Shown piece by piece: positions 1-28,840 of a DNA stretch of 46,475 nt. The stretch is from positions 1-46,475 of the forward strand of contig NZ_CAKMAA020000039.1 of NCBI RefSeq assembly GCF_924101635.2, read 5' to 3'. This DNA comes from Candidatus Nitrotoga sp. HW29. Lineage in GTDB: Bacteria; Pseudomonadota; Gammaproteobacteria; Burkholderiales; Gallionellaceae. Within the stretch, counting starts at the first letter, position 1. Each line of letters opens with the position of its first letter. A program made the translations under genes and the position numbers. Below the pieces are notes generated by a model that saw only the letters and a list, made by a program, of their open reading frames with translations, had not been told where the DNA came from and searched no databases.

Positions 1-44
1 GAAAACAATTTGCCCCAGTTGGCGCGATTTGATTTTTCTTGCAT
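1..44 (-). CDS. start of an unidentified gene (partial, runs off the left edge)
   Basis: Only the first codons are present, reading MQEKSNRANWGKLFS from an ATG at 44-42. The start is supported by the leader immediately upstream (45-112): a GGAG Shine-Dalgarno sits seven bases before the ATG in the same arrangement as at the other leader-controlled genes. It is the next cistron after the 241-residue gene at 153-878. Too little is visible to assign a family. Confidence 0.6.
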   Translation of the reverse strand, partial: MQEKSNRANWGKLF

Positions 45-112
45 GGTGTTCTCCTTTTTATGAAAAAAACGGAGACACCATGCCCTTGCGGGGAAGTGTC
101 CCCGCGTGGGTT
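45..112 (-). promoter_or_regulatory. repeated intergenic leader, copy A (before the gene at 44)
   Basis: On the minus strand a GC hairpin (GCGGGGA/TCCCCGC, loop CACT) is flanked by CCC and GGG. It is followed by GGTGTCTCC (79-71), a T-tract, an A-tract, and GGAGAACACC (54-45) directly before the ATG. GGTGT pairs with ACACC and CTCC with the Shine-Dalgarno GGAG, leaving one bulged A; the T and A tracts extend the helix. The alternative pairing GGGGACAC with GTGTCTCC (one G-U) is followed by G and seven Ts. Confidence 0.8.
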
Positions 113-152
113 AAATTCGCCGTATTAACCGACGAATTGCTTATTACTTATT

Positions 153-878
153 TCAAGATGCGTGGCAGCATTCAATCCGCTTCACGGTCTTGGGAATCAT
201 TACAACCTCTTCGACAACCTTGCAACTCCTAATCAGCTCAATGAAATTATCCCGAATTTCGTCACACGCCTGATCGAACCGGCGAACCAGTTCAACGTGA
301 TTACGAAGTTCTGACATCGACCATTCAGAAAATTCCTCATTCTGGTCGATGCTCTTTCCGGGATACACCGACAAGCGTTTTGGTGGCAACGTGTAATTGA
401 CGCGGCCATATTCTCCTTCAGCGCCGCATGCGCCACACCTGTTGCCAATGGTGTAATCCCTGGCAATCACCGCAGCCGTTATCACGCCTTCTGCCGTAGC
501 GTCAGGCGTATAAACATAACGGTAATTTCTTTGGCCGCAGGTGCGACAGTGCGACTTGTGTCCAGTCAACTCATACTTGCTGTTGTAAAGGACGAGGTAG
601 CCACTGGATCGCCCATTGGTTCCAATCGTGTATCTCCCACTCATTTCTGAGGTGAAGTCTGCAATTGGCTGGTCGATTTCGTCCCAAAAATCCGTTTGCA
701 GCATGTCGTATGCTGCATTCAATTGCTCGGAAGTCAGACCCAGTTTGTGCAACTTTATGTTGTGCGCATAGCTTGTCGAGCGATTCCAACTGTTCATTGT
801 GTTGTACCTGTAATGGCCAGTCACAAAATCAATCATCACTTTTTTGCTACGCTTGTCTAACGTCTTTTCAAAAAACAT
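153..878 (-). CDS. hypothetical protein with two CxxC pairs
   Basis: A 241-residue protein of no family I recognise. Two cysteine pairs in the middle, HCRTCGQRNY and RCGACGAEG, suggest a small zinc ribbon and hence possible nucleic-acid binding, but this is inference. An in-frame start exists further upstream at 953, but it would translate through the leader hairpins. I chose the ATG at 878 because a GGAG Shine-Dalgarno and leader copy B lie just before it. The residues after that start, MFFEKTLDKRSKK, look like a normal N-terminus. It is the third gene of the radC unit. Confidence 0.7.
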   Translation of the reverse strand: MFFEKTLDKRSKKVMIDFVTGHYRYNTMNSWNRSTSYAHNIKLHKLGLTSEQLNAAYDMLQTDFWDEIDQPIADFTSEMSGRYTIGTNGRSSGYLVLYNSKYELTGHKSHCRTCGQRNYRYVYTPDATAEGVITAAVIARDYTIGNRCGACGAEGEYGRVNYTLPPKRLSVYPGKSIDQNEEFSEWSMSELRNHVELVRRFDQACDEIRDNFIELIRSCKVVEEVVMIPKTVKRIECCHAS

Positions 879-945
879 GGCGCGCTCCTTTATATGGAAA
901 ACGGAGACACCATGCCCCTTGCGGGGAAGTGTCCCCGCGTAGGTT
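879..945 (-). promoter_or_regulatory. repeated intergenic leader, copy B (before the 241-residue gene)
   Basis: Same layout as copy A, starting about 4 nt after the stop codon of the upstream 76-residue gene. The arm next to the ATG is changed from ACACC to GCGCC, yet still pairs with GGTGT through two G-U pairs, and CTCC still covers the GGAG Shine-Dalgarno with one bulged base. The T-tract is only four bases. This pairing-compatible change is evidence that the helix matters. Confidence 0.75.
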
Positions 946-949
946 AAAT

Positions 950-1180
950 TCAAGCTTCTCTGGTTAAATAATCGTCATCCTTCATCACTCCAAGACCAAC
1001 CAAATGGTTTCTCAGCCCCATAAGGTCATTCTTGTTCCGCATCCAGCCATCTTCAAAAATATCAAAACCCTTGATCTCGAAAATGGTGTTATTGCTTTCA
1101 TCACGAACATCAGCATAAAACTCGCCGCGTTCGTCAAGATTGATGAAGTACAGATACGTCTTTCTTTCAGGCACACTCAT
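950..1180 (-). CDS. small hypothetical protein, translationally coupled to radC
   Basis: A 76-residue acidic protein (N-terminus [15 protein letters not shown]) with no recognisable family. Its ATG overlaps the radC stop codon as ATGA, so it is almost certainly translated by ribosomes finishing radC. Like the other overlapping genes in this region it has no leader of its own. Aromatic and charged residues alternate as in a small beta-rich domain. No cysteine motif, signal peptide or membrane segment is seen. Confidence that it is a real gene comes from the 4-nt overlap and its position between radC and the next leader. Confidence 0.65.
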
Positions 1181-1776
1181 ATCAAACCTCGTTCGGCAAA
1201 AGACAATGCTTCTTGCTCGCCGATCACAATGTGATCGAGAACTCGAACATCTACCAATCCAAGGGCTTGCTTCAGTGCATCAGTTAGCATGCGGTCGGCG
1301 CTGCTTGGCTCTGCCACCCCTGAAGGATGGTTGTGGCTCAGCATTACCGCTGCCGCGTTGTGTATCAGGGCGCGTTTGACAACCTCGCGTGGATACACGC
1401 TGGTTTGTGTGAGCGTCCCGTGAAACAGCTCTTCCGAAGCGATAAGACGATGCTGGGCATCGAGAAACAGCACCATGAATACTTCCTGCTGCCGTCCACC
1501 CAACACCAGCCTCAAGTAATCCTTGACCACATTGGGTGAATTAAATGAAATCGGATGGATGCTAATGTCCTCTTTGAGTGCCCGCGCAAACAACTCTTTG
1601 GCTGCGGAGATGATAGGTGCGGGCACATACTGAGCTTCGTTTTCGCAAATCATTTCCTGACGATTTGCACGCATTCCAAATAAAACGGAAAGTGGAACTT
1701 GTGATATCTTTTTAGCCATCCCTTTTCCTACCAGGACGGACAATAAATCAGGTGTGCTGCAATGTTGGATATTCAT
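1177..1776 (-). CDS. radC: RadC-like JAB/MPN-domain protein
   Basis: A 199-residue RadC-family protein. The JAMM metal-binding signature is intact: Glu at about residue 99 ([11 protein letters not shown]), then HNHPSG at 148-153, and the serine/aspartate of PSSAD ending at Asp161. The helix-hairpin-helix N-terminal part of chromosomal RadC is shortened. RadC copies like this are common on conjugative elements and genomic islands; their true biochemical role is unsettled, and a function in processing recombining DNA is inference. It opens the second transcription unit, just downstream of a 65-bp repeat (1842-1906) and leader copy C, and overlaps the next gene by 4 nt. Confidence 0.85.
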
Positions 1777-1842
1777 TTTGTGTCTCCTTGAAATAAAAAA
1801 GGGGACACAAGCCCTGTCGGGGATGTATCCCCGATAGGGTAG
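1777..1842 (-). promoter_or_regulatory. repeated intergenic leader, copy C (before radC)
   Basis: Minus strand: TCGGGGA/TCCCCGA hairpin (loop TACA) flanked by CCCTA and CAGGG, then TTGTGTCCCC, six Ts, and GGAGACACAA before the ATG. The Shine-Dalgarno helix is 9 of 10 pairs with one C-A mismatch. The competing helix GGGGATAC/GTGTCCCC has eight pairs (one T-G) and is followed at once by the T-tract, as in an intrinsic terminator. Confidence 0.8.
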
Positions 1843-1906
1843 TTATAACGATTGCTCGCCTTCTGTTTGTTTTGATTGGTCAGCCGCCAATATCAGCTCA
1901 AGGCAT
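1842..1906 (-). repeat. 65-bp direct repeat, copy 1 (head of the radC unit)
   Basis: Sixty-five bases matching 13009-13073 with two differences. In both places it lies immediately upstream (minus strand) of the first leader of a transcription unit. It contains ATTGG-N7-CCAAT, a possible activator or repressor site. This copy also ends in an inverted repeat, CTCAAGGC-ATA-GCCTTGAG (1897-1915), that the other copy lacks. It probably carries the promoter and/or an antitermination or regulator site; I see no convincing -35/-10 pair. Confidence 0.75.
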
Positions 1907-1925
1907 AGCCTTGAGGATGAATTCA

Positions 1926-1960
1926 CTTTTTATGGCGCACTCATCGAATGCGTCATAAAA
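1926..1960. repeat. inverted repeat next to the terminator
   Basis: TTTTTATG-G-CGCA and TGCG-T-CATAAAAA face each other across nine bases, pairing in 12 of 13 positions. It follows the intrinsic terminator of the upstream unit and precedes the 65-bp repeat, so it may be a second termination or RNA-end structure. Confidence 0.5.
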
Positions 1961-1976
1961 AGCCCCGCAAGCGGGG
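1957..1976 (-). terminator. intrinsic terminator after the Toprim gene
   Basis: Minus strand: CCCCGC-TT-GCGGGG followed by C and five Ts, 40 bases after the stop of the gene at 2018-3085. It closes the long unit that begins near 13000, so radC needs its own promoter, which fits the repeat at 1842-1906. Confidence 0.75.
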
Positions 1977-2017
1977 TAAAACAGCCCTGGACAAGCATGC
2001 CCATGAAACTGGCTTGC

Positions 2018-3085
2018 TTACCGTATGGCGGTTTTTTTGGCGAATGCCTGATGCACGTCGCCATTGACCACATCCAGCCAGTCAACAGATTTCATCCCTC
2101 GCGGAATATCTGTGTCAGGCAACTTGATGCTGGCCTTTACGCCTTCTTTCCACAGGCGTTTTACCAGTGACTTCGCCGAGCTCAACCCGTGACCTTCCGG
2201 ATGAATTCTGGAAGGCCGATCTTTGTCGGCATAGATCACCACATCAGCACCTTTTGGCGGCACGAAGTTTTCCAGCAAGTAGGCGTTGCCGGCAGCCCAT
2301 ACAGGCACGTTAAAAGCACCCATGACGGCCAGTGCTGTTTCGATGCCTTCTGTGATTGCCAATACCCTGCTATCACCTTGTGTCGCTATCCTCATCGCAC
2401 CAAACAAATTATCGGCACAGTGCCGCATCATTTTCTTGGGGGACGGGACTTTGGCTTTCTCGCCATCGTGTGTGATGTATGAGCGATGCACGGTCGAAGG
2501 ACGACCGTTTGCATCGCACACCATCGCGACAATGGCGGGGTACGTGCCGACCGGCTTTCCCTCTTCGTAATACTCAAGCGAAGGGACAAAACGGATCATC
2601 CTGCCATCAACTTTTCGATAGTCGATCTGCCCGATTCCACGGTTCGCAAAATACAACCTTGCTGCCCGCGCTTCGGGTGAGGTCAGAGGAACACTGACTT
2701 TCCATACATGATTCAGGGAATCGCGAATGTCCTGCCTGTTTTCCTCTTTTTTGACACACACTTTTTTGGCTGGCAAGGGCGCGTAATACTTCTCGCCGCT
2801 GCCCAACAGCATGTCGTGTATGGCGCGGTGGGTAGTTAGAAAATCCCATCCGTTCGCCCACATGAGCAGCGTATATCCATCGTGATGGATGCCGCATGTG
2901 TTGCACACACCGCCACCCGTATCTTCAAAATCCCGAAACAGCCTGAATCCATCTGTCCCGCCATGCACGGGGCACGGTACATGATTCGGCGTGCGCTCTA
3001 CTGCCTGGCCAAGCTGCGGGGCAAGCGATGCAACAATGCTTTCCCAGCGTCCTGCGGCCAACAACTTCAATTCCTTCGCTTCCAT
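2018..3085 (-). CDS. primase-like protein with zinc finger and Toprim domain
   Basis: A 355-residue protein. N-terminal zinc-binding element: CPVHGGTDGFR (about residues 40-50) with CNTCG about 25 residues later, as in phage and plasmid primases of the P4/DnaG type. A C-terminal Toprim domain has ITEGIETALAVMG (catalytic Glu) and VVIYADKD (metal-binding Asp pair). There is no helicase domain. It probably makes or helps make primers on the single strand received in conjugation, or supports element replication. I chose the ATG at 3085 (GGAGG Shine-Dalgarno) over an upstream in-frame start that would run through the leader. Last gene of the recE-recT-ssb unit. Confidence 0.8.
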   Translation of the reverse strand: MEAKELKLLAAGRWESIVASLAPQLGQAVERTPNHVPCPVHGGTDGFRLFRDFEDTGGGVCNTCGIHHDGYTLLMWANGWDFLTTHRAIHDMLLGSGEKYYAPLPAKKVCVKKEENRQDIRDSLNHVWKVSVPLTSPEARAARLYFANRGIGQIDYRKVDGRMIRFVPSLEYYEEGKPVGTYPAIVAMVCDANGRPSTVHRSYITHDGEKAKVPSPKKMMRHCADNLFGAMRIATQGDSRVLAITEGIETALAVMGAFNVPVWAAGNAYLLENFVPPKGADVVIYADKDRPSRIHPEGHGLSSAKSLVKRLWKEGVKASIKLPDTDIPRGMKSVDWLDVVNGDVHQAFAKKTAIR

Positions 3086-3228
3086 GATGCCTCCTTGGTC
3101 TATCCCGCATGGGACACGCCAAAGCACCCAGCGGGATGTATTGGTGTGTCCCGTGTGGGCGGGTGGTTGTAAAACCACCGGCAAAGAAGCACCCCATGGG
3201 GGATGATTCCCCCGGTGGGTGGTTGATT
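3086..3228 (-). promoter_or_regulatory. diverged, apparently tandem leader, copy D (before the Toprim gene)
   Basis: A 143-nt gap holding two GC hairpin modules in a row, GGGGGA/TCCCCC and then CGGGA/TCCCG, each flanked by CCC and GGG as in the canonical leader. GGGACAC and GTGTCCC can still pair perfectly (7 bp). The arm that would cover the Shine-Dalgarno, and the T-tract, are missing, so this start (GGAGG) looks open. Probably a duplicated and decayed copy. Confidence 0.55.
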
Positions 3229-3654
3229 TTAGAAAGAGCCTTCGTCCAATTTGGGCTTTTGGCCTGCCTTTGTGGTTTTGCCTTTGTTGGCAGCGGGTGC
3301 GGGTGCTGCAACGTGGGACTCATCATCCGTCTTGTTGCCGCCGAGCATTTTCATCTCGGAGACAACAATTTTTGTGACGTAACGATCCTCCCCATCTTTC
3401 TGATATTTCTCGGTCGTGATCTTGCCTTCGACATAGATTAGCGCGCCCTTCTTGAGGTGCTCACCAACCATTTCTGCCAGGCGGCGATAGAACACGAGGT
3501 TGTGCCACTCTGTTTTCTCCTGTTTCTCACCATTCTTGTCTTTCCATGACTCGGAAGTTGCCAGGGAAACATTTGCGACTGCTTCGCTCCCCTGGGTGTA
3601 ACGAATTTCCGGGTCTTTTCCAAGACGGCCGATTAATTGCACTTTGTTCAACAT
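3229..3654 (-). CDS. ssb: single-stranded DNA-binding protein
   Basis: A 141-residue SSB. The N-terminal OB-fold (about residues 1-107) is clear: [33 protein letters not shown], and [18 protein letters not shown] flexible Ala/Pro/Lys linker follows. The C-terminal tip is LDEGSF instead of the usual acidic DDDIPF, so the docking peptide for SSB partners is weaker. Element-borne SSBs coat the incoming strand and support single-strand annealing with RecT. It lies between recT and the primase-like gene, preceded by its own leader copy, with the recT stop codon directly abutting that leader. Confidence 0.92.
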
Positions 3655-3730
3655 GGTATTTCTCCTTTGATAAAATATAAAAAGAAGACACCATTCCCCA
3701 GAGGGGAACGATGTCCCCGTGAGGGTGGTT
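3655..3730 (-). promoter_or_regulatory. repeated intergenic leader before ssb
   Basis: It starts at the recT stop codon (TAACCACCC). The hairpin GGGGA/TCCCC is flanked by CCC and GGGG. GGTGT pairs with ATACC (one G-U), CTTC with the GGAG Shine-Dalgarno, and TTT with AAA, with a two-base bulge. The competing helix GGGGACAT/GTGTCTTC has eight pairs including three wobbles and is followed by a T-tract. An alternative TTCCCC-TCT-GGGGAA hairpin is also perfect. Confidence 0.75.
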
Positions 3731-4784
3731 AAACCAGGCTGCCTTGTTCAGTGATCGCGTCTTTGCATTTACGATACTCGCGCAGCGCGACATCAAGCTC
3801 TGCATCCTCCAGATCCACTTCGGCACGGATATAAATCTCATCCAATGCCTCAACAGTGCTGGCTGATTTCAAAGCCGCGACAACCTTGTCCAGCTTTTCG
3901 AGTTTGCTCACTGCCTTTGCCGATTGCGGTTGGCTCTCGGCTTTGGCTGGTGGTTTGTCCTTGATCTCTTCCGCCCCCTCAGCGACATCAACCGGCGCGT
4001 AACTGCCGTCGATCACGTCGTTCAGATTCAGGTTTTGACCTTGGCCTGCATGCGCTTTTTCATCCATCGCCAGTGCTGTTGCCAGCTCGGGTGATTTAGG
4101 CAAGAACTTGCAGATGCGCCGGATGACCGTTTTCAGCCCCATCGCCACAAAGTCGGTATCCCAGACGGATTCCTTCTTGTATTTTCTGGCTGCCTGGTAG
4201 CCGCGACTGCCATCACGGATGCTTTCGACTTCTTTGCGCCCCATTGCGACAAACGTCCTGCTGCCATCCTTGAGGACGCCTACCGCATAGAAGCCAACCA
4301 CTTCTCCGCGTTCTTCATCAGACGCGGGGAAGCCGCCCGGTGCAGTCAGCGGTTCGTGTTCCAGGCTTCGTTCCATGCCGAGTTTTAGCGCGAACGTGTC
4401 GTTCATGCGCACCTCGTGTGCATAGATGTCCTGCACCAATCCACTCTGACGCGCCAGCTTCATCAATCCGGTGTAACCCGGAATGAGCTGGCATTGGTTG
4501 CCAAACGGGACAAGGTGAGCTTCGCCCATCAGCCCCACTTCCAGTCCAAGTTGCGAGGACTGGATGACGGCGGCAAACACACTGCGCGGGTCGCACTCCC
4601 CCAGCTTCGGGGTCATGCGAAACGCCGTGAGCGCAATGCGTGCCATGCGGTCAGGATTGATGTGCTTGGGCAGCGCGCGGGCGATTTCTCCCTTGAACTG
4701 TTCAAGCATTGCCGGGAAGCCCTGCGGTTGCTCGTTATTGGCTGCGGCGGTACGGTTGATGTTTTTGAGTGCTTGTAATGCCAT
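3729..4784 (-). CDS. recT: RecT-family single-strand annealing recombinase
   Basis: A 351-residue RecT protein. Diagnostic stretches are [54 protein letters not shown] and the later [19 protein letters not shown]. RecT anneals complementary single strands and works with a RecE-type 5'-3' exonuclease, encoded here at 11975-12787, and an SSB, encoded next door. The C-terminal third is a Lys/Ala/Glu-rich extension. SXT/R391 elements carry the analogous ssb-bet-exo set, so a role in element recombination and diversification is likely. The start at 4784 is fixed by leader copy E. Confidence 0.92.
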
Positions 4785-4862
4785 GGTGTTTCTCCTTTTT
4801 GTTAAAACAAAAAAACGGAGACACCACGCCCCAGAGGGACAATGGATGTCCCCGTGGGGTTG
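4785..4862 (-). promoter_or_regulatory. repeated intergenic leader, copy E (before recT)
   Basis: A long Shine-Dalgarno-covering hairpin: GGTGT/ACACC, CTCC/GGAG with an AA bulge, then TTTTTG/CAAAAA. Upstream, GGGACA-TCCAT-TGTCCC is flanked by CCCC and GGGG. The competing helix GGGGACAT/GTGTCTCC is followed by G and seven Ts. Confidence 0.8.
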
Positions 4863-4968
4863 CTTGAATCGAACCGGTTGCCCGATACGATGCTTGATGC
4901 TGTTTTACCTTCCGGCAAGGCCAGCGGCCTCTTCACGTCACTGCATTACGCAGCGACTTGAATTTTCT

Positions 4969-7900
4969 TCAGGCTATTTCCTCTGTTTCATCAACAGCGG
5001 TGTTTTCGCCCTTGCTCAAATCGAGCTCGGCTTCGATTTCTCGTTGCCGTTGTTTTAACCACTCCAGCCGCGCAGCCTTGTCAAACGGCTTTGCGGCTTC
5101 GGCCTGAATGTCGGCCATGCGTTTCTCGGTTCTGGCCAAATTCTCCTGCTCTTCCAGGAGCCACTGTTCCATCCTGTTGAGTGAGTTTTCGAGTACACGC
5201 ACAAAACCTTGCGCTGATTCCGCCTGGCCGCATCGATACTCGACACCTCCCAGGACAACCAGTTGTCCGCCCATTTCCTGTAATGCCGACAACTGCACGG
5301 CAACACGGAACCCGGCAATTTGACCCACTATCCGATCACCGCCTGACTTCACTCCATACACAGCGTACAAAAGTGCCTTTCCCGCTTCGGCGCGATCTGT
5401 ATAGCGTTTCCCCTCTACTTCCATCAGGAATTTGCTACCAGATACGTCTTGCCGGGAAGCCATGTCGGACTCAATGCCGGTAATTCTGGCCTGGACGCGC
5501 TCGATGCGACCTGGCAAGGTTGCCAGTTCCTGCTTGTTGCGCCATTGCTGCTGATCCCATTGAGACCTGAGCAACGACAGCTTGGCAAGTTCGGTATCGA
5601 CCCCCGCTTTTTCCAGCACCAGCGGATTGCCTGACGCCAAGGCTTTCACCTCCGCATAAGACAACGCGGCCAATTCAACATCCTCTGCGCTACGCATCCC
5701 GGTATCCCCTTGCATGACTTGTGCGATGAATCTCGCCTTTGTCTCAAGCGTTTGCCAGATGTAGGCATCGAACGAGCCTTCGGTTACATAACGGTAGATG
5801 CGCACACGCTCGTTCAGGTTGCCCTGGCGAATGATGCGCCCCTCCCTTTGCTCCACATCAGATGGCCGCCATGGGGCATCCAGATGATGCAGTGCCGCCA
5901 ACCGGGTCTGGATGTTTGTCCCGACCCCCATCTTCTGCGTGCTGCCCAGAAGGATGCGGATACGCCCATCACGCGCGGCCTTGAAAAGCTCTTCCTTGGC
6001 TGCATCGCTCTCGTAGTCGTGAATGAAGGCGATGTCCTCGATTGGAACGCCTCTCTCTACCAGATTTTGACGCAACGCCTGATACACGCTGAACCGACCG
6101 TTTTCCACCGGAGTGGACAGGTCGCAGAACACAATTTGTGTTCCACGGAACAGCATGGTTTCCCCCCAGATACCGAATACTTTCTCGGCACAATGGTTCA
6201 CCTTGCCATTCTCGACCTCGGCGAATAAATCGATCAGACGCATGTCCAACGCGGCCTTGCGGCCATCGTTGGTAACGGCCAGCATGTTGTCCACAGAGGG
6301 ACTGACGTTGCCGTTCCTTATTGCTTCTGCCCGCTCCACGAGGGTTTGGACGAGTGCTTTCAAGTCATCTGTCGGCTTGATCGTTACAGTTTCCTTGTGC
6401 GCATCTGGCACCGGCAATTTCAGCATCTCCGCAGTGCGAATATCCGCCACCTCACCGAACATGGACATCAGTTCTGGAAGATTGACGAACTTCGCGAAAC
6501 GGGTATGCATCCGGTAGCCTCTACCATCCGGAGCCAGCTCCAGAGCCGTTACCGACTCGCCGAAGTTGCCTGCCCAGGTGTCAAACATCCCCACCTGAAA
6601 GGCTTCCATCGTCTTCGGTTGCAGGTATCGCTGCATGACCCACATTTCGGCCATGCTGTTGGACACCGGCGTGCCAGTCGCGAACACCACGCCTGCTCTG
6701 CCCTTGTGTTTTGCCATGACGCTGCGAGTCTTGACGAACATGTCGAATGCCCGCTCCGAATTGCTGTTAGGCAATCCGGCAACCCGTGTCATCTTGCTGA
6801 ACCTCCACAAGTTCTTGAACAGATGCGCTTCATCGACAAACATCCAGTCGATGCCCAATTGCTCGAAGGACAGAATTTCATCCTTCTTGTTTTTACCTGA
6901 CAGCTTTGCCAGTTTTGCTTCCCATGCTTTTTTCGCACGGGCCAGCTCCTTGATGATGCGGTTACCGCGATCCTGCTTTTCAGCGCGAATGGCATCTTCA
7001 ATGAGATCGATTTCATTCTGGATATATTCCTCCATGAATCCATCGCTCATCTTGATGCGCTCGAACGAAGCATGCGTAATCAGCACACCATCCCAATCGC
7101 CGGTGGCAATACGGGAAAGAAGCTGACGGCGCTTGTCCCCCTGAAGATCGTCTTTCGACGCAATCAGGATGTTGGCGCCGGGATACGCACGCAGGAACTC
7201 GGCTGCAAACTGGTGAAGCATGTGGTTTGGCACCACATACATCGGTTTGCTTGCCTTGCCTAGGCGACGAAGCTCCATGCCGGCACAGATGCAAGTCAGC
7301 GTCTTGCCAGCCCCAACAACATGGGCAAGCAAGGTGTTTAGCTGACTCGCAACAATACGCCAGATGGCATCCCGCTGATGCTCGTGCAGGCTGACTATCC
7401 GGGAATATCCCGGCAACACCAGATGCCGACCATCAAACCTGCGCGGCACAACGCTGTTGAACGTATCGTTGTAAAGCCTTGCCAGTCTTAGTGCTCGTTC
7501 CTGATCGGACCACAACCACTCCTGAAATTTCTCCTTGAGCGACTGCTGCTTCTCGCGTGCCGCGATGGTCTCCTTCTGGTTGACCACGCGCTTGTCACGA
7601 TCCTCGGGATCAGGATCATGCACGGTCGGCACGGTTTGATTCAATGCCTGGTCGAACAGGGTTGCTGCATTTACCCGCTCGGTTCCATACGTCTGCGTAG
7701 CTGCTATCGACGATTTGGTACTGTAATGCGTGTCGATATTCCACGCGCCTGCTGCCTGGTTGAACGTCACGGTGTTTCCGTTGCACTCCAGAGTTTCATC
7801 AAGGAATGCTTCGTAATCGCTTGTCGGTATCCAGGTGGATCCGATGCGCGCACCGATCTCGCCTGGTGTCAGATCATCGGGAATCACGGCTTCCAATGCT

Positions 7901-9876
7901 TGCGCATTTCGGCTGAAACGCTCACCCGACACCCTGGCAGCAGATAATTTATTACGGACATTACCGGCAAGATAACTGTCTTTGGTTTCCCAATTGCCGG
8001 TTTGCGGATCGAGGAATACCGCGCCCAACGCTTCGAGCTCCTTCATGGCTTCGCTGCCCGGTTTCCCGAGCAATTGGCCAATCCGGTTTTCTACGACGTG
8101 GCCACACTCGGTCAGGCTGACCAGCAACGCCTCTTCCGAGGTTTCGCAATGATCGACCTTTTTGAACATCCCCACCGTGCGCTGAAAAAAGATGTCTGCC
8201 TTTTCGGCGGTCTGAGTTTCCCCATCCCAGCGTTCCAGCGACATCAGCAACGGCAGATCGGGATCACCTTTGAAAGCGGCCCTGTTTGCCTTGGTGTGGA
8301 TGCTCCCGCATTTTGCGACGAAGTGGTCGTATTCGATATTCAGTGTCAACCGGTAAGCGGCAAGAATCGCCTCATCCCCGGTTTCAACTTGTGACCGAAC
8401 AATCTTGCGTGCCGCATCACGGATACCGCACATGCCAGCGATGCGTTCCAGCGTTTTTTGCGGCGCGATGAATTGCGACGCTTCCAACCCGTCATTTGTT
8501 TCATACACCTTGCCGTCAATCACCCTGAAACCTGGGCGACCCTGGGCGTTGTACTCCAGACGCAAAACAGCTTTTGTTTTTTCAACTTCCCGAATCGCCG
8601 CGTAGATACCTTCCGGCAGCATGGACACCTTTTCGGCCAGTGCGGCTTCAAGGTTGCCCTCGAATATGCAGCCAGTCGATTTCTGGTATCCGTTTTCAGT
8701 CAGTGCAAGCTTGCCGATGACCCATTGAGGGTTCTCGGCAAAATACTGGTTGCACGATATTTGTTGATGTCTCCAGTATTCCCTGCTCTCCCCGTAGATC
8801 GGGGATGTTTCCGGCAGAACGAGTGTTTCCATCCAGCCTTTTTTACTGCTACGCCCTTCCAGCGGTTTTTGCAGCACCAGTATGTCGGTCGTCACTTCGG
8901 TGTTGGCGATTCTCTTGAAAGCGGTATTGGGCAGGCGAACTGCTGCCACCAAATTAGCCTTGCTGCCAAGATATTGCCGCACCTTGTCGTCACACTTGTC
9001 CAGCGTCCCGGAGGACGTGATGAACACAACCAACCCGCCCGGCCTGACAACTTCCATCGCTTTCGCAAAGAAGTAATCGTGGATCAGGAAGTTGGCGTAG
9101 GGAACGTTGCGCAGTTCCGGCACCTGGTAATTCCCGAACGGAACATTCGAGATAGCCAGATCGTAAAACTCATCCGGCAGCTTTGCCGCCTCAAACCCGC
9201 TCTGTATGACGTTTACCCCGAAATCCCCGTAAAGAGCCTTCAGGATGCGCGCCGATAGTTGATCGAGTTCAATTGCTGTGACGGTGCTTTGCTGGGCAAT
9301 CTCCTGCGGCATCGCGCCAAGAAAATAACCAGCACCGGCTGATGGCTCAAGAATGCGGCCACCCTTGAAACCCAACCGTTCCACCATACTCCACGTCGCC
9401 TCGATGACTTCCAGGGCGGTGTAGTGGGCGTTTGGTGTGCTGGCTTCAGCAGATTGGTACTCATCTTCACTCAGCAATGCCTTGAGGCGTTCAGCGCGGG
9501 CAACCCACGATTGTTCTTTCTGGTCATCATTGAATGTTTGCGGAATGCCGCCCCAACCGGTGTAACGGTTGAGCACTTCCCGATCTTCCGTGGTCGCTTG
9601 CCTCTTCTCGGACTCCAGCTTGCGCAGGCATTCGATTGCGGCAATGTTAGCCTCGAATTTGGTGACGTTGCCGGATAAACCGAAAAACGTGACGGCATCG
9701 AGACGCGGCCATACTGCTTTGATTGTTGCGACTTCGGCAGCCAGCGCTTTGGAAAACGGGATGATCTCGGCTTCGCGTTGCGTGACAACCGGCCCTTGCA
9801 AAACAATCGGGGCGTTGTCTTCTGGCTCAAAACCGGGCAACCACATGATTGCCGCAGCGATTGCTTTCAATTTCAT
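4969..9876 (-). CDS. giant N6-adenine-methylase/SNF2-type helicase (DarB-like)
   Basis: A 1635-residue fusion. The N-terminal third is an adenine methyltransferase fold: GRILEPSAGAGYFLG (SAM site) and SNVPFGNYQ at about 242-250 (the NPPF-type catalytic motif). The rest is a superfamily 2 helicase: HVVGAGKTLT (Walker A, about 852), MFVDEAHLFKNL (about 1014), FATGTPVSNSMAEM, and the motif VI region VEQREGRIIRQG (about 1340). A coiled C-terminus follows. Large proteins of this build occur on conjugative elements and phages; P1 DarB protects transferred DNA from host restriction, so anti-restriction is the likely role (inference). An in-frame start at 9990 is rejected because the ATG at 9876 follows a GGAGG and leader copy F. 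Confidence 0.85.
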   Translation of the reverse strand: MKLKAIAAAIMWLPGFEPEDNAPIVLQGPVVTQREAEIIPFSKALAAEVATIKAVWPRLDAVTFFGLSGNVTKFEANIAAIECLRKLESEKRQATTEDREVLNRYTGWGGIPQTFNDDQKEQSWVARAERLKALLSEDEYQSAEASTPNAHYTALEVIEATWSMVERLGFKGGRILEPSAGAGYFLGAMPQEIAQQSTVTAIELDQLSARILKALYGDFGVNVIQSGFEAAKLPDEFYDLAISNVPFGNYQVPELRNVPYANFLIHDYFFAKAMEVVRPGGLVVFITSSGTLDKCDDKVRQYLGSKANLVAAVRLPNTAFKRIANTEVTTDILVLQKPLEGRSSKKGWMETLVLPETSPIYGESREYWRHQQISCNQYFAENPQWVIGKLALTENGYQKSTGCIFEGNLEAALAEKVSMLPEGIYAAIREVEKTKAVLRLEYNAQGRPGFRVIDGKVYETNDGLEASQFIAPQKTLERIAGMCGIRDAARKIVRSQVETGDEAILAAYRLTLNIEYDHFVAKCGSIHTKANRAAFKGDPDLPLLMSLERWDGETQTAEKADIFFQRTVGMFKKVDHCETSEEALLVSLTECGHVVENRIGQLLGKPGSEAMKELEALGAVFLDPQTGNWETKDSYLAGNVRNKLSAARVSGERFSRNAQALEAVIPDDLTPGEIGARIGSTWIPTSDYEAFLDETLECNGNTVTFNQAAGAWNIDTHYSTKSSIAATQTYGTERVNAATLFDQALNQTVPTVHDPDPEDRDKRVVNQKETIAAREKQQSLKEKFQEWLWSDQERALRLARLYNDTFNSVVPRRFDGRHLVLPGYSRIVSLHEHQRDAIWRIVASQLNTLLAHVVGAGKTLTCICAGMELRRLGKASKPMYVVPNHMLHQFAAEFLRAYPGANILIASKDDLQGDKRRQLLSRIATGDWDGVLITHASFERIKMSDGFMEEYIQNEIDLIEDAIRAEKQDRGNRIIKELARAKKAWEAKLAKLSGKNKKDEILSFEQLGIDWMFVDEAHLFKNLWRFSKMTRVAGLPNSNSERAFDMFVKTRSVMAKHKGRAGVVFATGTPVSNSMAEMWVMQRYLQPKTMEAFQVGMFDTWAGNFGESVTALELAPDGRGYRMHTRFAKFVNLPELMSMFGEVADIRTAEMLKLPVPDAHKETVTIKPTDDLKALVQTLVERAEAIRNGNVSPSVDNMLAVTNDGRKAALDMRLIDLFAEVENGKVNHCAEKVFGIWGETMLFRGTQIVFCDLSTPVENGRFSVYQALRQNLVERGVPIEDIAFIHDYESDAAKEELFKAARDGRIRILLGSTQKMGVGTNIQTRLAALHHLDAPWRPSDVEQREGRIIRQGNLNERVRIYRYVTEGSFDAYIWQTLETKARFIAQVMQGDTGMRSAEDVELAALSYAEVKALASGNPLVLEKAGVDTELAKLSLLRSQWDQQQWRNKQELATLPGRIERVQARITGIESDMASRQDVSGSKFLMEVEGKRYTDRAEAGKALLYAVYGVKSGGDRIVGQIAGFRVAVQLSALQEMGGQLVVLGGVEYRCGQAESAQGFVRVLENSLNRMEQWLLEEQENLARTEKRMADIQAEAAKPFDKAARLEWLKQRQREIEAELDLSKGENTAVDETEEIA

Positions 9877-9950
9877 TTGTGCCTCCTTTTTTGACAGCAA
9901 TAAAAAAGGGGACACTTCCCTAACGGGGATTGTGTCCCCGGTAGGGTTTT
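9877..9950 (-). promoter_or_regulatory. repeated intergenic leader, copy F (before the methylase-helicase)
   Basis: CCCTA-C-CGGGGA-CACAA-TCCCCG-T-TAGGG forms a strong nested hairpin. GTGTCCCC plus six Ts then faces AAAAAAGGAGGCAC, covering the Shine-Dalgarno with one C-A mismatch and one T-G. The competing helix GGGGACAC/GTGTCCCC is fully Watson-Crick (8 bp) and is followed directly by the T-tract. Confidence 0.82.
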
Positions 9951-10013
9951 TGAAAAAACTAGATAGTGCTCTGGGCATGAAAAAAATCACTCATGCCCAT
10001 CGCTCCTGTGTTG

Positions 10014-10364
10014 TTACACGTTATTACCGCGCACGACCTCAACCAACCATTCCCTGCGCTTTGTTCGACGGATCAAATAAATACCTGTCAGCAGATGTCC
10101 GCAACAGTCATGCTCGCACCGACAATGCCAAGTGAAAGCCCCTCGAAGAACGTTGGCAACGTCCGCTTCGGATGCGCCTCTTGGTGCTGCTACGGTATAG
10201 ATGCGACCTTCCGCCTCTCCGTTGCTTGTGTCAGTGTTGGCGACGCGCCTGATTTTGAGAATTCGGAATTTACCGACGTACTCATGCTCATCGTCGCCCT
10301 TCCACCCTTCGTTGAATCTGAAGGTTATGCGCTTGTAGCCATCAAAGGTTTTAGGGGTTGGCAT
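10014..10364 (-). CDS. small hypothetical Cys/His-rich protein
   Basis: A 116-residue protein starting MPTPKTFDGYKRITFRF. The second half contains WHCRCEHDCCGHL, a cluster that could bind metal. No family recognised. The start at 10364 has a GGGAGG Shine-Dalgarno and overlaps the end of the upstream 98-residue gene by 14 nt. A longer in-frame version would lie on top of that gene and is rejected. Last of three overlapping small genes served by leader G, followed by about 60 nt and the methylase-helicase leader. Confidence 0.6.
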   Translation of the reverse strand: MPTPKTFDGYKRITFRFNEGWKGDDEHEYVGKFRILKIRRVANTDTSNGEAEGRIYTVAAPRGASEADVANVLRGAFTWHCRCEHDCCGHLLTGIYLIRRTKRREWLVEVVRGNNV

Positions 10365-10647
10365 TGCTGCCTCCCTTGGTGGCCTTTGCGATGGCGGCAC
10401 GGATCTGAACCAACTTGCTGGACATACCTTCTTGCGTTTCGTCCCCATCAAAACCGAGCATAAAGAGTTCGGCCATGATGAGCGCTTCGAGCAAATCAGG
10501 TGCGGCAGCGATGAGTCTTGCATTCGCTGCTGTTTCTGATTCTCCATTCGCCCAGACCGTTGCGATGTGATCGCCATTCTGGTTTGGGAAACGCGCCATG
10601 ATTTCGGTGTTGGCGATGTTATGCCAGGTACCTTGTGTATGCCTCAT
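10351..10647 (-). CDS. small hypothetical phage/plasmid-type protein
   Basis: A 98-residue protein. The centre, NARLIAAAPDLLEALI, is a stretch common in small uncharacterised proteins of phages and mobile elements that begin with a short beta-rich part (here GTWHNIANTEIMARF). Function unknown. Its ATG overlaps the stop codon of the preceding 212-residue gene (ATGA), and its end overlaps the next gene, so the three are translationally coupled. Confidence 0.65.
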   Translation of the reverse strand: MRHTQGTWHNIANTEIMARFPNQNGDHIATVWANGESETAANARLIAAAPDLLEALIMAELFMLGFDGDETQEGMSSKLVQIRAAIAKATKGGSNANP

Positions 10648-11282
10648 TGCACACCTCCTTTCGGAGAGAAGTCATAGAGAACTTCACCGGACACCTTGTC
10701 GTACACCGATGCCCAGTAGCCATCGCTCGCCCATTGCCTTGCCTGATGCAAGGCAATATCGCGCGACTCGGTGTCATATCCCAGCGTTGAGCCACCCTTC
10801 ATTCCCTCGTTGGTACGTGGATCACGAACTGTGGCGACCACATGGTAGTGAGCAGAAGATAAAAGGTTAGCCGCCATGTACAACGTTCTGCCATTTGCAA
10901 CAAAAACGCCTCTCATGGTTTGCGCCTGAAACTTTCCTTTAATGCCGAAGACCTCGCCGATAGGTTCACCTTCTGCGTTTCGTGCCAGCCAACGGCCTTC
11001 GGACACTTTTTCGATCTTGCACAGACTGGAATCTTCGCAGCGATACGATTCATAGCTGCGAATCCTGGATCGACAATCAGTGTGATGCGTCCTGATGTCG
11101 GCTTCCTTGAGTGCAGCCAGGAAAACTGACAAGTCGCAATCCTCTTCCAGATAGGCCGTATCGCCACGTTGGTAGCTGTATGGCGTGATCTGAGAGGCTA
11201 TGCCAAAACTATGCAGGTAGTGTTTCTTGACGGCGAGCCAGCCGTGACCGGGGTCGGCGTAGAAATGAAAAATTTTTTTCAT
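10644..11282 (-). CDS. hypothetical protein
   Basis: A 212-residue protein beginning MKKIFHFYADPGHGWLAVKK. This start resembles small plasmid proteins with a DPGHGW motif seen on conjugative elements, but I cannot name a domain with confidence. It has no signal peptide or membrane segment. The ATG at 11282 is fixed by leader G, whose last bases (GGAGACACCATG) include the start codon inside a perfect 12-bp inverted repeat. First of three overlapping small genes. Confidence 0.65.
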   Translation of the reverse strand: MKKIFHFYADPGHGWLAVKKHYLHSFGIASQITPYSYQRGDTAYLEEDCDLSVFLAALKEADIRTHHTDCRSRIRSYESYRCEDSSLCKIEKVSEGRWLARNAEGEPIGEVFGIKGKFQAQTMRGVFVANGRTLYMAANLLSSAHYHVVATVRDPRTNEGMKGGSTLGYDTESRDIALHQARQWASDGYWASVYDKVSGEVLYDFSPKGGVQ

Positions 11283-11353
11283 GGTGTCTCCTTGCTGTTA
11301 ATAAGCACGGAGACACCATGCCCCTTGCGGGAACGATGTCCCCGGGTTGGTGG
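11283..11353 (-). promoter_or_regulatory. repeated intergenic leader, copy G
   Basis: The strongest Shine-Dalgarno-hiding hairpin of the set. CATGGTGTCTCC and GGAGACACCATG are a perfect 12-bp inverted repeat that includes the start codon, with TGCT/AGCA pairing inside the loop. The upstream GC hairpin is CGGGGA/TTCCCG. The T-tract is absent here (GTGCTTATT), so a terminator form is unlikely in this copy. Confidence 0.8.
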
Positions 11354-11355
11354 AT

Positions 11356-11565
11356 TCAGAACAGCGTCAACGTGCCGGTTGGCAATGTTGTCGGGCGATT
11401 CTTTTTGAGAACTTCCTGCAAAACAGCTTCATCGGACATGCCCGCCTGCAAATGGGTGATGATTTCCGAGAAAAGTGATTTGGCCTGACGCGCCCCTAGT
11501 GACGGGTCTGCGCGAAAAGCATCCAGGGCGATCTTGAGAGCTTTGGGTTTGATTTTTTGTTGCAT
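11356..11565 (-). CDS. small basic hypothetical protein
   Basis: A 69-residue, mostly helical protein (MQQKIKPKALKIALDAF; LGARQAKSLFSEIITHLQAG). It could be a small DNA-binding or regulatory protein, but no family is recognised. Support for a real gene comes from its own leader (copy H), a GGAGG Shine-Dalgarno, and a stop codon 2-3 nt ahead of the next leader. Confidence 0.6.
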   Translation of the reverse strand: MQQKIKPKALKIALDAFRADPSLGARQAKSLFSEIITHLQAGMSDEAVLQEVLKKNRPTTLPTGTLTLF

Positions 11566-11635
11566 GATGCCTCCATACTCGGATGAGCAGAGACACCATG
11601 CCCCTTGCGGGGCATGACATCCCCGCGTGGGTGGT
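11566..11635 (-). promoter_or_regulatory. repeated intergenic leader, copy H (sequence-diverged, pairing kept)
   Basis: The bases around the Shine-Dalgarno differ from other copies, but GGTGTCTCTG still pairs with TGGAGGCATC over all ten positions by using four wobble pairs, and CTC/GAG pairs inside the loop. Upstream, ATGCCCC-GCAA-GGGGCAT is a perfect hairpin with a GNRA loop. No T-tract. Confidence 0.72.
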
Positions 11636-11638
11636 TGG

Positions 11639-11899
11639 CTAATTAACGCAAGCCGGTGCGTCCGCAGCTTTTGCTCTGCGGATGCGCTTCTTTTTCTTTT
11701 CAGCCAGAATGGGAATGGCTATCCCACGCCGGATGAATGTGGGTGTGTCAAGTCCTGCCCAGTTTTGCTCGTTCGGCATTGATGCCGATTTAATCTCGGC
11801 CGCAAGCTTTGCCCTGGCGCGTGAATTGATAAACGCCACCACGACCCGAATGCCCCAATAAACTGCCAATGCGATGCCAAACAAGATCAAGATGCCCAT
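11639..11899 (-). CDS. small single-pass membrane protein
   Basis: An 86-residue protein. Residues 1-24 (MGILILFGIALAVYWGIRVV) form one hydrophobic helix, probably an uncleaved anchor. The rest is cytoplasmic and basic, with EKKKKRIRRAK near the C-terminus. Function unknown. Leader copy I precedes it, and the stop codon is 3-4 nt before leader H. Confidence 0.65.
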   Translation of the reverse strand: MGILILFGIALAVYWGIRVVVAFINSRARAKLAAEIKSASMPNEQNWAGLDTPTFIRRGIAIPILAEKKKKRIRRAKAADAPACVN

Positions 11900-11974
11900 T
11901 TTGTGTCTCCTTTTTGAAATAAAAAAAAGGGGACACGAGCCCTTGTCGGGGACGTGTCCCCGATAGGGTTGTTG
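11900..11974 (-). promoter_or_regulatory. repeated intergenic leader, copy I
   Basis: TCGGGGA-CACG-TCCCCGA is flanked by CCCTA and CAAGGG. Then CGTGTCCCC, eight Ts, and AAAAAGGAGACACA before the ATG. The competing helix CGGGGACACG/CGTGTCCCC is a perfect 9-bp stem followed at once by the T-tract, the best terminator-like copy. Confidence 0.82.
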
Positions 11975-12787
11975 TTACGCTTCGATATCGAAGTTTGCTG
12001 CCCAGCGCGGAAGATCAATCGTCTCGATCTCGCCGTTCGGTTGATAGCCGGGGAACTGTTTGTTTTCCTGGCACCATTTCAGCAACTCAAGCGCGCCGCG
12101 ATACTTTGCACGCCCGACTTCGATCATTTCCTGACTTGCGATGTAACAGGCCGTCGAAAATGGTGCATTCTTTTCCACTGCGATAAAGTGAAAGCTGACC
12201 GTTTTTCCAGTCACCGCCTTCATGCCATCCGTGTAAAAAGCGGCCTGCACGTCATAGCCAAGATTGGCTATCGCTTTGGAGAAACTGTCTTTGCTCGCAC
12301 CGCAGCAGCTTTTAAGGTCTGCCATGCCGTACTCGCACATCCAGTCTGGACGTATCCTGCACGGCAATCCCGTGTAGTCATCAGTCCAGAACAAGGATGT
12401 CTCGGCTTCGCCATCGTTAAGCATTCTGGCTGCGCCCGCATGATTGAAAACGCTTACCCGCATTGCGACAAGTGTGTCCATCTGCTCTGCGGTCAAGGGT
12501 GTCTTGCCCGCATTTTCAACATCCCACTTTGCGGCTGTTTCCTTGCCTTCCTTGGTGCGTCGGTCAAACTTCGGCGCGAGCACATAACCTTTTGAAAAAG
12601 CCTCGGGTTCCAGGATAAAGCTGTGGAATGCCGAACCGAATTCCATTGCTGGCGTTGGCTCGGCTGATCCCGTTTTGTATTGCAGGTAATGTTCGGGAGA
12701 CTTGAGTAACTGAACAATCCCGCTGTGTGATATTGCCTCACCGGAGTGGTAAACCTGTATAGGCAAATGTCTGACGATGCGTTTCAT
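11975..12787 (-). CDS. RecE-like exonuclease (PD-(D/E)XK)
   Basis: A 270-residue protein matching the nuclease domain of RecE/exonuclease VIII. The features are VYHSGEAISHSGIVQLL at the start, AMEFGSAFHSFILEPEAF, the catalytic core CRIRPDWMCEYGMADLKSC (Asp...Asp-X-Lys) at about 143-161, and YDVQAAFYTDGM, which holds the Gln and Tyr typical of this nuclease class. It should degrade the 5' strand of double-stranded ends to make 3' single strands for RecT (3729-4784). A start 11 codons upstream lies in the leader; the ATG at 12787 has a GGAGG and is preferred. Chromosomal RecE is far longer; the single-domain form is usual on mobile elements. Confidence 0.85.
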   Translation of the reverse strand: MKRIVRHLPIQVYHSGEAISHSGIVQLLKSPEHYLQYKTGSAEPTPAMEFGSAFHSFILEPEAFSKGYVLAPKFDRRTKEGKETAAKWDVENAGKTPLTAEQMDTLVAMRVSVFNHAGAARMLNDGEAETSLFWTDDYTGLPCRIRPDWMCEYGMADLKSCCGASKDSFSKAIANLGYDVQAAFYTDGMKAVTGKTVSFHFIAVEKNAPFSTACYIASQEMIEVGRAKYRGALELLKWCQENKQFPGYQPNGEIETIDLPRWAANFDIEA

Positions 12788-12853
12788 TTTGTGCCTCCTC
12801 TTTGAAAAAAAGGGGGACACAAACCCTTGGCGGGGAGGTGTCCCCGCGTGGGT
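12788..12853 (-). promoter_or_regulatory. repeated intergenic leader, copy J (before the RecE-like gene)
   Basis: GCGGGGA-CACC-TCCCCGC is flanked by CCCAC and CAAGGG. TTGTGTCCCCC plus seven Ts faces AAAGAGGAGGCACAA. The competing helix GGGGACAC/GTGTCCCC is perfect and is followed by C and seven Ts. The micro-ORF stop codon lies only a few bases upstream. Confidence 0.8.
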
Positions 12854-12856
12854 GAT

Positions 12857-12937
12857 TTAGTTCAACCCCAGCATCCAGACAATTGGACGGCTGAGGGTGT
12901 AGCCACTGATGCAGCAAGCGATAATGACAAGTTCCAT
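12857..12937 (-). CDS. 26-residue micro-ORF at the head of the recombination operon
   Basis: It reads MELVIIACCISGYTLS followed by RPIVWMLGLN and a TAA. It has the complete leader and GGAG Shine-Dalgarno used by the real genes (copy K), and its stop codon sits at the next leader in the same spacing seen elsewhere. The peptide is hydrophobic with a CC pair. It could be a tiny membrane peptide or a leader peptide whose translation sets the fold of the next leader. Coding is inferred from context only. Confidence 0.5.
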   Translation of the reverse strand: MELVIIACCISGYTLSRPIVWMLGLN

Positions 12938-13011
12938 GGTGTTCTCCTTTTTATGAAAAAAAACGGAGACACCATGACCCTTGCGGGGAACGATATCCCC
13001 GCTGGGTGGTT
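12938..13011 (-). promoter_or_regulatory. repeated intergenic leader, copy K (first of the long unit)
   Basis: GCGGGGA-TATCGT-TCCCCGC, then GGTGTCTCC, G, eight Ts, and AAAAAGGAGAACACC before the ATG of the micro-ORF. The Shine-Dalgarno half is nearly identical to copy A. The 65-bp repeat adjoins it upstream. Confidence 0.8.
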
Positions 13012-13073
13012 ATGACGATTGCTCGTCTTCTGTTTGTTTTGATTGGTCAGCCGCCAATATCAGCTCAAGGCAT
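13009..13073 (-). repeat. 65-bp direct repeat, copy 2 (head of the recE-recT-ssb unit)
   Basis: Matches 1842-1906 with two differences over 65 bases, in the same orientation and in the same place relative to a leader. Includes ATTGG-N7-CCAAT. Likely a shared promoter or antitermination/regulator site for the two units. Beyond 13073 the sequences diverge. Confidence 0.75.
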
Positions 13074-13129
13074 TAAGCACATGAAGCAAGATGAGGCAGA
13101 CACTACACCGGTTTTATTCTTTCTTCCAT

Positions 13130-13142
13130 GCGGATAATCCGC
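13130..13142. promoter_or_regulatory. palindrome between divergent units
   Basis: GCGGAT-A-ATCCGC, a perfect 6+1+6 palindrome, lies between the leftward recombination unit and the rightward regulator gene at 13244. A candidate operator. Confidence 0.35.
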
Positions 13143-13243
13143 AAAATCGCCGACTTTCGATCAGATTTTCCTGAAGCACTGTTTCACTATCAGCCTTTGT
13201 ATTAGCGCTGTTGTTTTGTTCCTCAACCGCAAAGGAGAGATTC

Positions 13244-14002
13244 TTGGAAAACGGTAAAGCAGTAAAAGGCGCACCCAGAAAAAAAGCTGATGAATTCAGC
13301 AATCCATTCCTGACCCAGGAGGTGAAGATACATTCGTCACCTGCCCAGGCTGTCTTTGAAAATGGTTTCGAGAAATGCGATTCGGCACTGCGTAGCTTGA
13401 GCGTTGTTCTGCCAGCCGTCCTCAAAAGCGATAACGAAATAATGACCGTCAATGGCGCGGTCGATCACCTGATCAACAATGCGTTTGTGAATCTGCGCAA
13501 CGAAAGCGCGCGGCTCAAGAAAATCGCCGAGGACAACGGCATTGAAATTGGCAGGGTGAATTACACCAACGTCACAACTTATCAGGCCAAAATTACCTGC
13601 AACAAATCCGGCCAGTATCTGCAAATGATCCGCGAACTCGACAGGTTGATGGAATTGGTGCATTCAACATGGCTTGCCGGATTCATCGCCGACGATGCGA
13701 AAGGCGCATTGGAGCGGCAATGGCGCAGGAAAACGCTGGGGGTTTCGGCAGAAATTTCTGCGATCCTGGCGCGCGCGTTCACTGCCGCGCAGAAGCTCAA
13801 GCATGATGCTCAGGCAGAATCCGGCCATGCGGCAACGGAAATCCCCGCAGACGAGGTAGTAGAAATACCCAAGAAAAAGTCGCGCAAGACGAAAACCAAG
13901 ACACCTGACAGCACGGAAACGAGCACGCCATTGATGGGCGAGGATGCCTGTCTGGCGGAACAGGCGACGAAAGACGATGGCCTAATGGCAGCTACTTTAT
14001 AG
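13244..14002 (+). CDS. AcaB-like / PFL_4669-type conjugative element regulator
   Basis: A 252-residue protein. The middle (ELDRLMELVHSTWLAGFI, then GALERQWRRKTLGVSAEI) resembles the DUF1845/PFL_4669 family found next to transfer genes in integrative elements and A/C plasmids, where AcaB is an activator in the transfer regulatory circuit. The C-terminus is a Lys/Thr-rich tail (KKKSRKTKTKTP). I place the start at a TTG (13244-13246) because AAAGGAGAG (13231-13239) sits at ideal distance; an earlier in-frame TTG at 13211 has no such site. It is divergent from the recombination unit, a fitting place for its regulator. Family call is from memory of motifs and moderate. Confidence 0.55.
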   Translation: MENGKAVKGAPRKKADEFSNPFLTQEVKIHSSPAQAVFENGFEKCDSALRSLSVVLPAVLKSDNEIMTVNGAVDHLINNAFVNLRNESARLKKIAEDNGIEIGRVNYTNVTTYQAKITCNKSGQYLQMIRELDRLMELVHSTWLAGFIADDAKGALERQWRRKTLGVSAEISAILARAFTAAQKLKHDAQAESGHAATEIPADEVVEIPKKKSRKTKTKTPDSTETSTPLMGEDACLAEQATKDDGLMAATL

Positions 14003-18593: not shown

Positions 18594-18596
18594 GCT

Positions 18597-21677: not shown

Positions 21678-21678
21678 A

Positions 21679-28832: not shown

Positions 28833-28840
28833 GCTCTCCA

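Follow-up and report, generated by a model that had tools for sequence, protein, structure and literature searches.

Several described elements resemble the one reported here. In translational riboswitch platforms the Shine–Dalgarno (SD) sequence is sequestered by an anti-SD strand that has an alternative partner. The radC RNA motif (RF01754) is, like the element considered here, a cis-regulatory candidate RNA of Proteobacteria. According to the part of PMC6733600 that cites van Meerten 2001, the leader of the phage MS2 maturation gene forms a transient structure that permits translation before the final fold is reached, and the same part describes sequential metastable hairpins with SD/anti-SD exchange in the type I toxin mRNAs aapA3 and hok. 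The STAXI motif is presented, in the relevant passage of Weinberg 2010 (PMC2864571), as a structure that recurs in the neighbourhood of genes for ssb, topoisomerase, antirestriction and integrase. Here we describe an RNA leader of about 70 nt repeated before most genes of a single run in Candidatus Nitrotoga sp. HW29; the DNA analysed, hereafter the window, is a complete contig (C39, 46,475 nucleotides) of a 3.0 Mb genome. We rate the leader as a new RNA family of a known kind, the SD-controlling cis-regulatory RNA, with an architecture for which we found no described match.

The collection of Rfam 15 models, STAXI included, gave no family at E ≤ 1 on window positions 1–13300, and Rfam matches on the searched relatives never overlap leaders; a preliminary description of this DNA had likewise named no described system of the sort. 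No description of the leader was found in the open-licence literature, pKLC102 and ICEhin1056 included. Integron attC sites carry GTTRRRY and RYYYAAC core sites at their ends; a tally limited to the 16 nt immediately 5′ of the leader, in 35 non-redundant leaders, showed no fixed core. An aptamer, as in a riboswitch, would have little room in the leader, since six of the 11 window leaders with an upstream gene begin 3–7 nt past the stop codon of that gene. The radC RNA motif differs in having 149 model positions and in sitting 5′ of the leader without overlap; the window contains none at the gathering cut-off (and positions 1–13300 none at E ≤ 1), the best score in the whole genome being 17.2 bits, below the 40-bit cut-off. 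MS2 is a single viral case, whereas the present leaders of about 70 nt occur one per cistron, in hundreds of copies and with changing letters. The transient hairpins of aapA3, as presented in the source cited above, hold the SD closed during transcription, whereas the predicted intermediate of the leader leaves it open. STAXI, in the passage referred to, consists of pseudoknot repeats and is in this respect unlike the leader.

The window carries 11 clear leaders and one diverged copy, all on the minus strand between positions 45 and 13011 and all abutting a start codon. The clear ones end at the ATGs at 44, 878, 1776, 3654, 4784, 9876, 11282, 11565, 11899, 12787 and 12937, and an unfiltered search of the window with the covariance model R2 returned precisely these 11 (50.0–82.6 bits, E 2.7e-10 to 8.1e-18), scores that are partly given by construction, as R2, built from 85 sequences, contains them. 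Delimited by sequence, folding and R2, they belong to the gene starting at 44, which runs off the contig and has a 283-aa homologue at locus L017 (leader 45–110), to 153–878 (241 aa, for which Pfam gave nothing at E ≤ 0.01; leader 879–943), radC (1177–1776; 1777–1839), ssb (3229–3654; 3655–3725), recT (3729–4784; 4785–4858, conserved before recT relatives), a 1635-aa SNF2/helicase-methylase gene (4969–9876; 9877–9946), 10644–11282 (212 aa; 11283–11350), 11356–11565 (69 aa; 11566–11631), 11639–11899 (86 aa; 11900–11968), a DUF3799 (RecE-like) exonuclease gene (11975–12787; 12788–12852) and a 26-aa open reading frame (ORF) that is the first of the run (12857–12937; 12938–13007). The leaders at 11283–11350 and 11566–11631 lack a T-tract, and in the former the hairpin HP2 is instead lengthened by UGCU/AGCA. 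The diverged copy, placed by sequence and folding before the gene for a zinc-ribbon/Toprim primase (2018–3085; 3086–3160), retains GGGACAC/GTGTCCC and gives a weak partial R2 match (3108–3159, E 0.08); just 5′ of it lies a remnant of a second, tandem leader hairpin, also on the minus strand (3176–3219, partial R2 match, E 0.026).

Leaders thus stand before 12 of the 15 genes of the run, namely those whose start does not overlap the preceding gene, while the genes starting at 1180, 10364 and 10647, whose starts do overlap it, have none. Both the copies and these absences had been listed in the preliminary description; its two operons, however, appear as one same-strand run that is not clearly divided. 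All 12 copies are more stable than their own dinucleotide shuffles (z −3.1 to −6.1). R2 matches on the opposite strand are weaker (best E 0.00013) and lie mostly on the same hairpins, and the exact pattern GGGGACA..GTGTCYCC occurs in the 3.0 Mb genome only on C39 and on contig C73, with 0 occurrences of the reversed control. A search of the whole window with a second model, R1, gave no match at E ≤ 1 past 13,014, so that the Dnd and transfer genes located there are without leaders.

From 5′ to 3′, the leader consists of CCC, strand A (GGGG and a loop, typically ACAC), strand B (CCCC), GGG, strand C, usually a U-tract, strand D and the AUG. Strand C, the anti-SD, reads GGUGUCUCC or UUGUGUCCCC in the window type, and strand D, which comprises the SD and the start, reads GGAG-ACACC or GGAG-ACACAA. 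Each leader holds three fits, A with B, A with C and C with D, and all three are kept in distant leaders with other letters, as in a single case from a Simplicispira plasmid (A GGGCAAUC, C GGUUGCUC, D GAGCAACC); judged by eye, G-G/C-C on the sides of C:D in one leader class becomes U-U/A-A in the other. The CCC/GGG clamp is nearly constant, whereas A, C and D vary from gene to gene. The CCC/GGG hairpin noticed at first is present, but it is only one of three alternative helices, and the three-way pairing had been missed. We propose, with a probability of roughly 0.7, that each leader is an intercistronic RNA gate on the access of ribosomes to the following gene, working by exchange among A:B, A:C and C:D. 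The broader statement that it is an RNA translation gate with a state in which the SD is buried appears highly likely, and we lean towards A:C being the open state.

The pairings were tested by comparing the fit of a leader's own strands with that of strands borrowed from other leaders. The main test took every parsable model hit by threshold alone (363 rows, 294 distinct, 290 parsed), and for the 33 non-redundant leaders drawn from these 290 it gave z −10.6 for A:C, −12.0 for C:D and −10.5 for A:B, with −1.0 for the control A:D; for 99 non-redundant leaders the corresponding values are −16.2, −19.5, −17.2 and −1.6. A:C is the most independent of these tests, because this pairing is absent from both R1 and R2. 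Earlier runs on partly hand-picked hits agree with the threshold-only run. Hand picking, which affects the sets of 218, 311 and 111 leaders used below for pairing, folds and folding paths, consisted in adding 25 weaker hits while others of similar E were left out, and in dropping eight as antisense echoes, lacking a start codon or badly aligned, one of which (L033:3178) is a real variant and was later restored; the leader L074:1501 could not be parsed. Upstream regions of recT picked by protein homology (13 non-redundant) gave z −5.0 for A:C. On alignment A4 the A:B helix shows 38 double-changed cells versus 8.6 in shuffles (a further alignment, A7, was limited to the 150 best-scoring of 235 hits), and the A:C columns of A4 contain 80 G-U versus 3 A-C pairs, which points to selection on the RNA-sense strand, as a G-U pair of the opposite strand would appear as A-C. 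Sequence comparison shows that the RNA sense is the constrained strand and that each helix retains its own pair of strands even though the letters differ from one gene or element to the next. By comparison and predicted folds, the SD pairs with a covarying anti-SD, as in an SD-sequestering cis-regulatory RNA, the signal being weaker in the protein-selected set. Lack of covariation, which the preliminary description had named as evidence against function, was thus not what we found, and of its two proposals, a functional RNA or a single-strand DNA element, the former, in view of the conservation before orthologous genes and the compensatory changes, is supported for this kind of mobile element.

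Predicted folds are in line with a gate of this type. The minimum-energy folds that include the ATG combine A:B with C:D in 10 of the 11 clear window leaders, and for 204 of 218 leaders such a fold has a paired SD, with the C region as its partner in 193 of these. Opening the SD costs a median of 7.4 kcal/mol (218 leaders); within annotated records, the median is 5.1 kcal/mol where a leader precedes the gene (n = 33) and 2.9 for the remaining genes of those records (n = 117), the latter including some genes whose leaders the model missed or scored weakly. Transcripts that stop before D have A:C in their best fold for 255 of 311 leaders (window, 11/11), whereas complete leaders fold best as A:B plus C:D in 282 of 311 (window, 10/11). 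When the transcript is lengthened one base at a time, A:B is predicted to form first, A:C next and the closed form last in 86 of 111 leaders, versus 76 of 333 chimeras that combine 5′ and 3′ halves from different leaders; these path counts rest on the partly hand-picked set, not the threshold-only set, and on equilibrium energies of prefixes computed in silico, not on kinetics. The folding order and the buried end state are thus predictions, in which an energetically ordered path, typical of delayed folding, leads from an open intermediate to a closed end.

Several observations weigh against this proposal. A:B and C:D are partly selected by the search models of which both pairings form part, so that their scores are inflated. 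Among the recT regions chosen by protein homology, the control A:D also reaches z −2.5, next to −2.8 for C:D and −3.1 for A:B, so that the latter two are weak there and A:C alone is clearly distinct. On A4 the A:C helix has 12 double-changed cells versus 8.9 in shuffles, a number attained by 50 of 500 shuffles, while five of 500 attain its covariation score; the misregister of some recT rows accounts for part of this small excess. In the window, the predicted end state of the ssb leader still contains A:C, folds vary with the chosen ends (the leader at 878 prefers A:C when the ATG is excluded), and when the SD is forced free, A:C is part of the best fold in just 104 of 218 leaders, HP2 opening internally in others.

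The gate might operate as follows. Strand A would pair first with B, clamped by CCC/GGG; the emerging C would then take A from B to form a long hairpin, leaving the coming SD free; and once D is complete, C would pair with D and A would return to B, burying the SD. Plain sequestration has no need of A:C, and termination none of C:D, whereas a gate that can be either open or closed needs both. Given the order of the strands, the open form would naturally arise on the way and the closed form at the end, which suggests a timer: if the A:C form is competent for translation, as we infer, translation would be confined to young transcripts. The gate may alternatively be held open by a factor that reads the constant clamp, or by an upstream module such as the radC RNA. 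The MS2 maturation leader, as far as the source cited goes, would be an analogous precedent for a timer, and a clamp-binding factor is equally possible; each of these two versions, the factor-free timer and the factor, can be put forward only tentatively. That such leaders form a widespread class of ligand-free RNA timers, their four strands competing in a set order as transcription proceeds, with each gene of a conjugative element translatable only on young mRNA and the radC RNA acting as a sensor placed before the timer in some elements, seems rather unlikely on present evidence.

One alternative puts the gates under common protein control: an RNA-binding protein encoded by the element or the host, comparable to Com of phage Mu acting on mom, would read the CCC/GGG clamp and set all gates of the operon together. 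It would account for one leader per cistron and for a nearly constant clamp beside A, C and D strands that differ between genes, a pattern that would oblige any recognition in trans to read the clamp or the shape. Constancy of the clamp could also stem from the needs of folding, however, and no candidate protein turned up, although no systematic search for one was made; we consider such an operator conceivable, with the odds somewhat against it. A single shared trans-acting RNA was rejected as the general mechanism, the leaders inside the Simplicispira and Delftia plasmids differing in the letters of A, C and D.

Plain insulation, by hairpins that just fix a low translation rate or protect mRNA ends without any switching, would agree with the predicted end states, 204 of 218 of which have a paired SD, but simple sequestration requires C:D alone and leaves the cognate A:C and A:B pairings unexplained, so that we regard it as improbable. 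We think as little of a transcription attenuator, in which A:C would be an intrinsic terminator (hairpin and U-tract) before each gene and A:B the antiterminator. A U-run does often lie directly 3′ of the A:C hairpin, with at least five consecutive T after the start of C in 167 of 311 leaders, and a terminator scan of window positions 1–13500 gave 26 sites versus 16.5 (s.d. 4.0) in shuffled sequence, the ssb leader ranking first. The U-run is nevertheless present in just 14 of 35 non-redundant leaders, the 21 without it are still cognate (A:C z −7.5, C:D z −9.8), and in leaders without it (47, the test being applicable to the 79 of 111 that are long enough) the arms beside the HP2 loop still match (z −3.2), a match for which termination has no use; nor would this reading give any role to the pairing of C:D with the SD. 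With 14/35 and 167/311 the family as a whole fails to show the hairpin plus U-run, and an intrinsic terminator was rejected as the general mechanism.

A single-stranded DNA element used in transfer, like STAXI or Frpo, would fit the location on DNA-handling genes of conjugative elements but is very improbable, given the G-U excess in the A:C columns, the 289 of 294 distinct model hits that end in a start codon (where the model itself ends) and a window without Rfam match. Translational coupling to the upstream gene was rejected as the general mechanism because the distance from stop codon to leader in the window ranges from 3 to 178 nt, and an upstream ORF starting in C was rejected by eye, on two leaders only.

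The search of mobile elements with covariance models built from the window leaders, as the preliminary description had advised, found hundreds of further copies. At E ≤ 0.0018, R1 detects 63 leaders, spread over the window and seven further loci (L023 among them belongs to the same genome) and always on a single strand per locus. R1 also detects leaders on plasmids of Sulfuricystis, Simplicispira, Delftia, Azospira and Azonexus, and in the distant element L022 twelve genes are headed by leaders in an order unlike that of the window. At E ≤ 1e-4, R2 finds leaders in at least 32 of 399 sampled genomes of the order and at least 19 of 369 of the class (the own genome being counted in both), and at E ≤ 1e-5 in at least nine of 398 genomes of the phylum (own counted), one of them outside the class; these are lower bounds, with 12–13 candidates scored per genome. 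The long-studied elements pKLC102 and ICEhin1056 give best R2 matches of E 2.8e-5 and 7.6e-7, respectively, and plasmids of Pseudomonas veronii, Shewanella baltica and Enterobacter ludwigii 1.1e-5, 3.2e-5 and 1.1e-5. On pSTJ1 (L031) there was one match only, at E 1.5, and viral contigs gave no hit to a strict pattern limited to one subtype, so that leaders may still occur in phages. The genes behind leaders encode, among others, DUF3577/STY4534 integrative and conjugative element (ICE) replication proteins, RadC, RecT, ArdC-like and DUF3150 proteins, and in the window's own family also PRTRC ParB and PRTRC E.

Homologous genes free of leaders, suggested at the outset as evidence against a functional element, are not the rule either. 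A protein search for RecT yielded 53 named loci; the start of recT is directly preceded by a leader in 46 of them by model (E ≤ 0.001) and in 49 by eye; the remaining four are L108 (start not found), L126 (masked) and the distant L149 and L150 (start unmapped). With a less refined pattern the hairpin is recognised in 42 of 52 recT loci (L126 left out), and 234 of the 235 model matches in recT loci lie on the recT strand.

Nine Rfam radC RNAs lie on pKLC102 and the P. veronii and E. ludwigii plasmids, and for seven of them the model detects a leader between the RNA and the gene, at E < 0.001 in five cases and at 0.016 (L095:8941) and 0.081 (L095:9562) in the others. Those just 5′ of leaders are at 8669–8816, 9746–9896 and 12274–12411 in L093, at 8781–8926 and 9404–9551 in L095, and at 6168–6310 and 9727–9876 in L097; the eighth (L097, 5257–5399) has a leader recognised by eye only, and the ninth (L097, 3323–3465) is without one. 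This arrangement suggests a composite 5′ untranslated region (UTR) in which the radC RNA is the upstream module and the leader the output stage, the window leader standing alone; it offers a suggestion for what lies 3′ of the orphan radC RNA motif. More generally, conjugative plasmids and ICEs, pKLC102 and ICEhin1056 among them, gain a large RNA family. Its changing yet mutually complementary strands are a natural experiment in co-transcriptional folding, and the leaders could serve as compact parts for asking whether folding order alone times translation.

The surroundings of the leaders offer some further observations. A conserved hydrophobic ORF of 25–26 aa with its own leader lies just 5′ of the exonuclease gene in several elements (window 12857–12937, minus strand; L017 17099–17179; L018 354–431; L022 3357–3434; L054 1567–1644), and these ORFs share an SRP motif close to their end. 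In the same genome, exonuclease, small-ORF and recT genes with leaders occur once more at C73:1226–2594 (L023), and on its contig C82 (L033) leaders stand on PRTRC E and, as a weak match (E 0.0057), PRTRC ParB. A relative from the same genus, G007, is represented by contig C31 of 168,712 bases.

Beyond the leader run, the window carries the Dnd genes B, C, D, F and G together with F-type transfer genes. The phosphorothioate modification/restriction genes occupy 14869–22989, with DndD/PbeC-like, DndC and DndB on the minus strand and DndF and DndG on the plus strand, and the DndC-like protein is some 80 aa longer than the profile over the matched stretch. At 27936–29941 (plus strand) an HNH nuclease gene adjoins a DndB-like gene, the best PADLOC match of the latter being DpdB (E 6.9e-18), and an AbiEi/AbiEii pair lies close to the contig end (44250–45766, minus strand).

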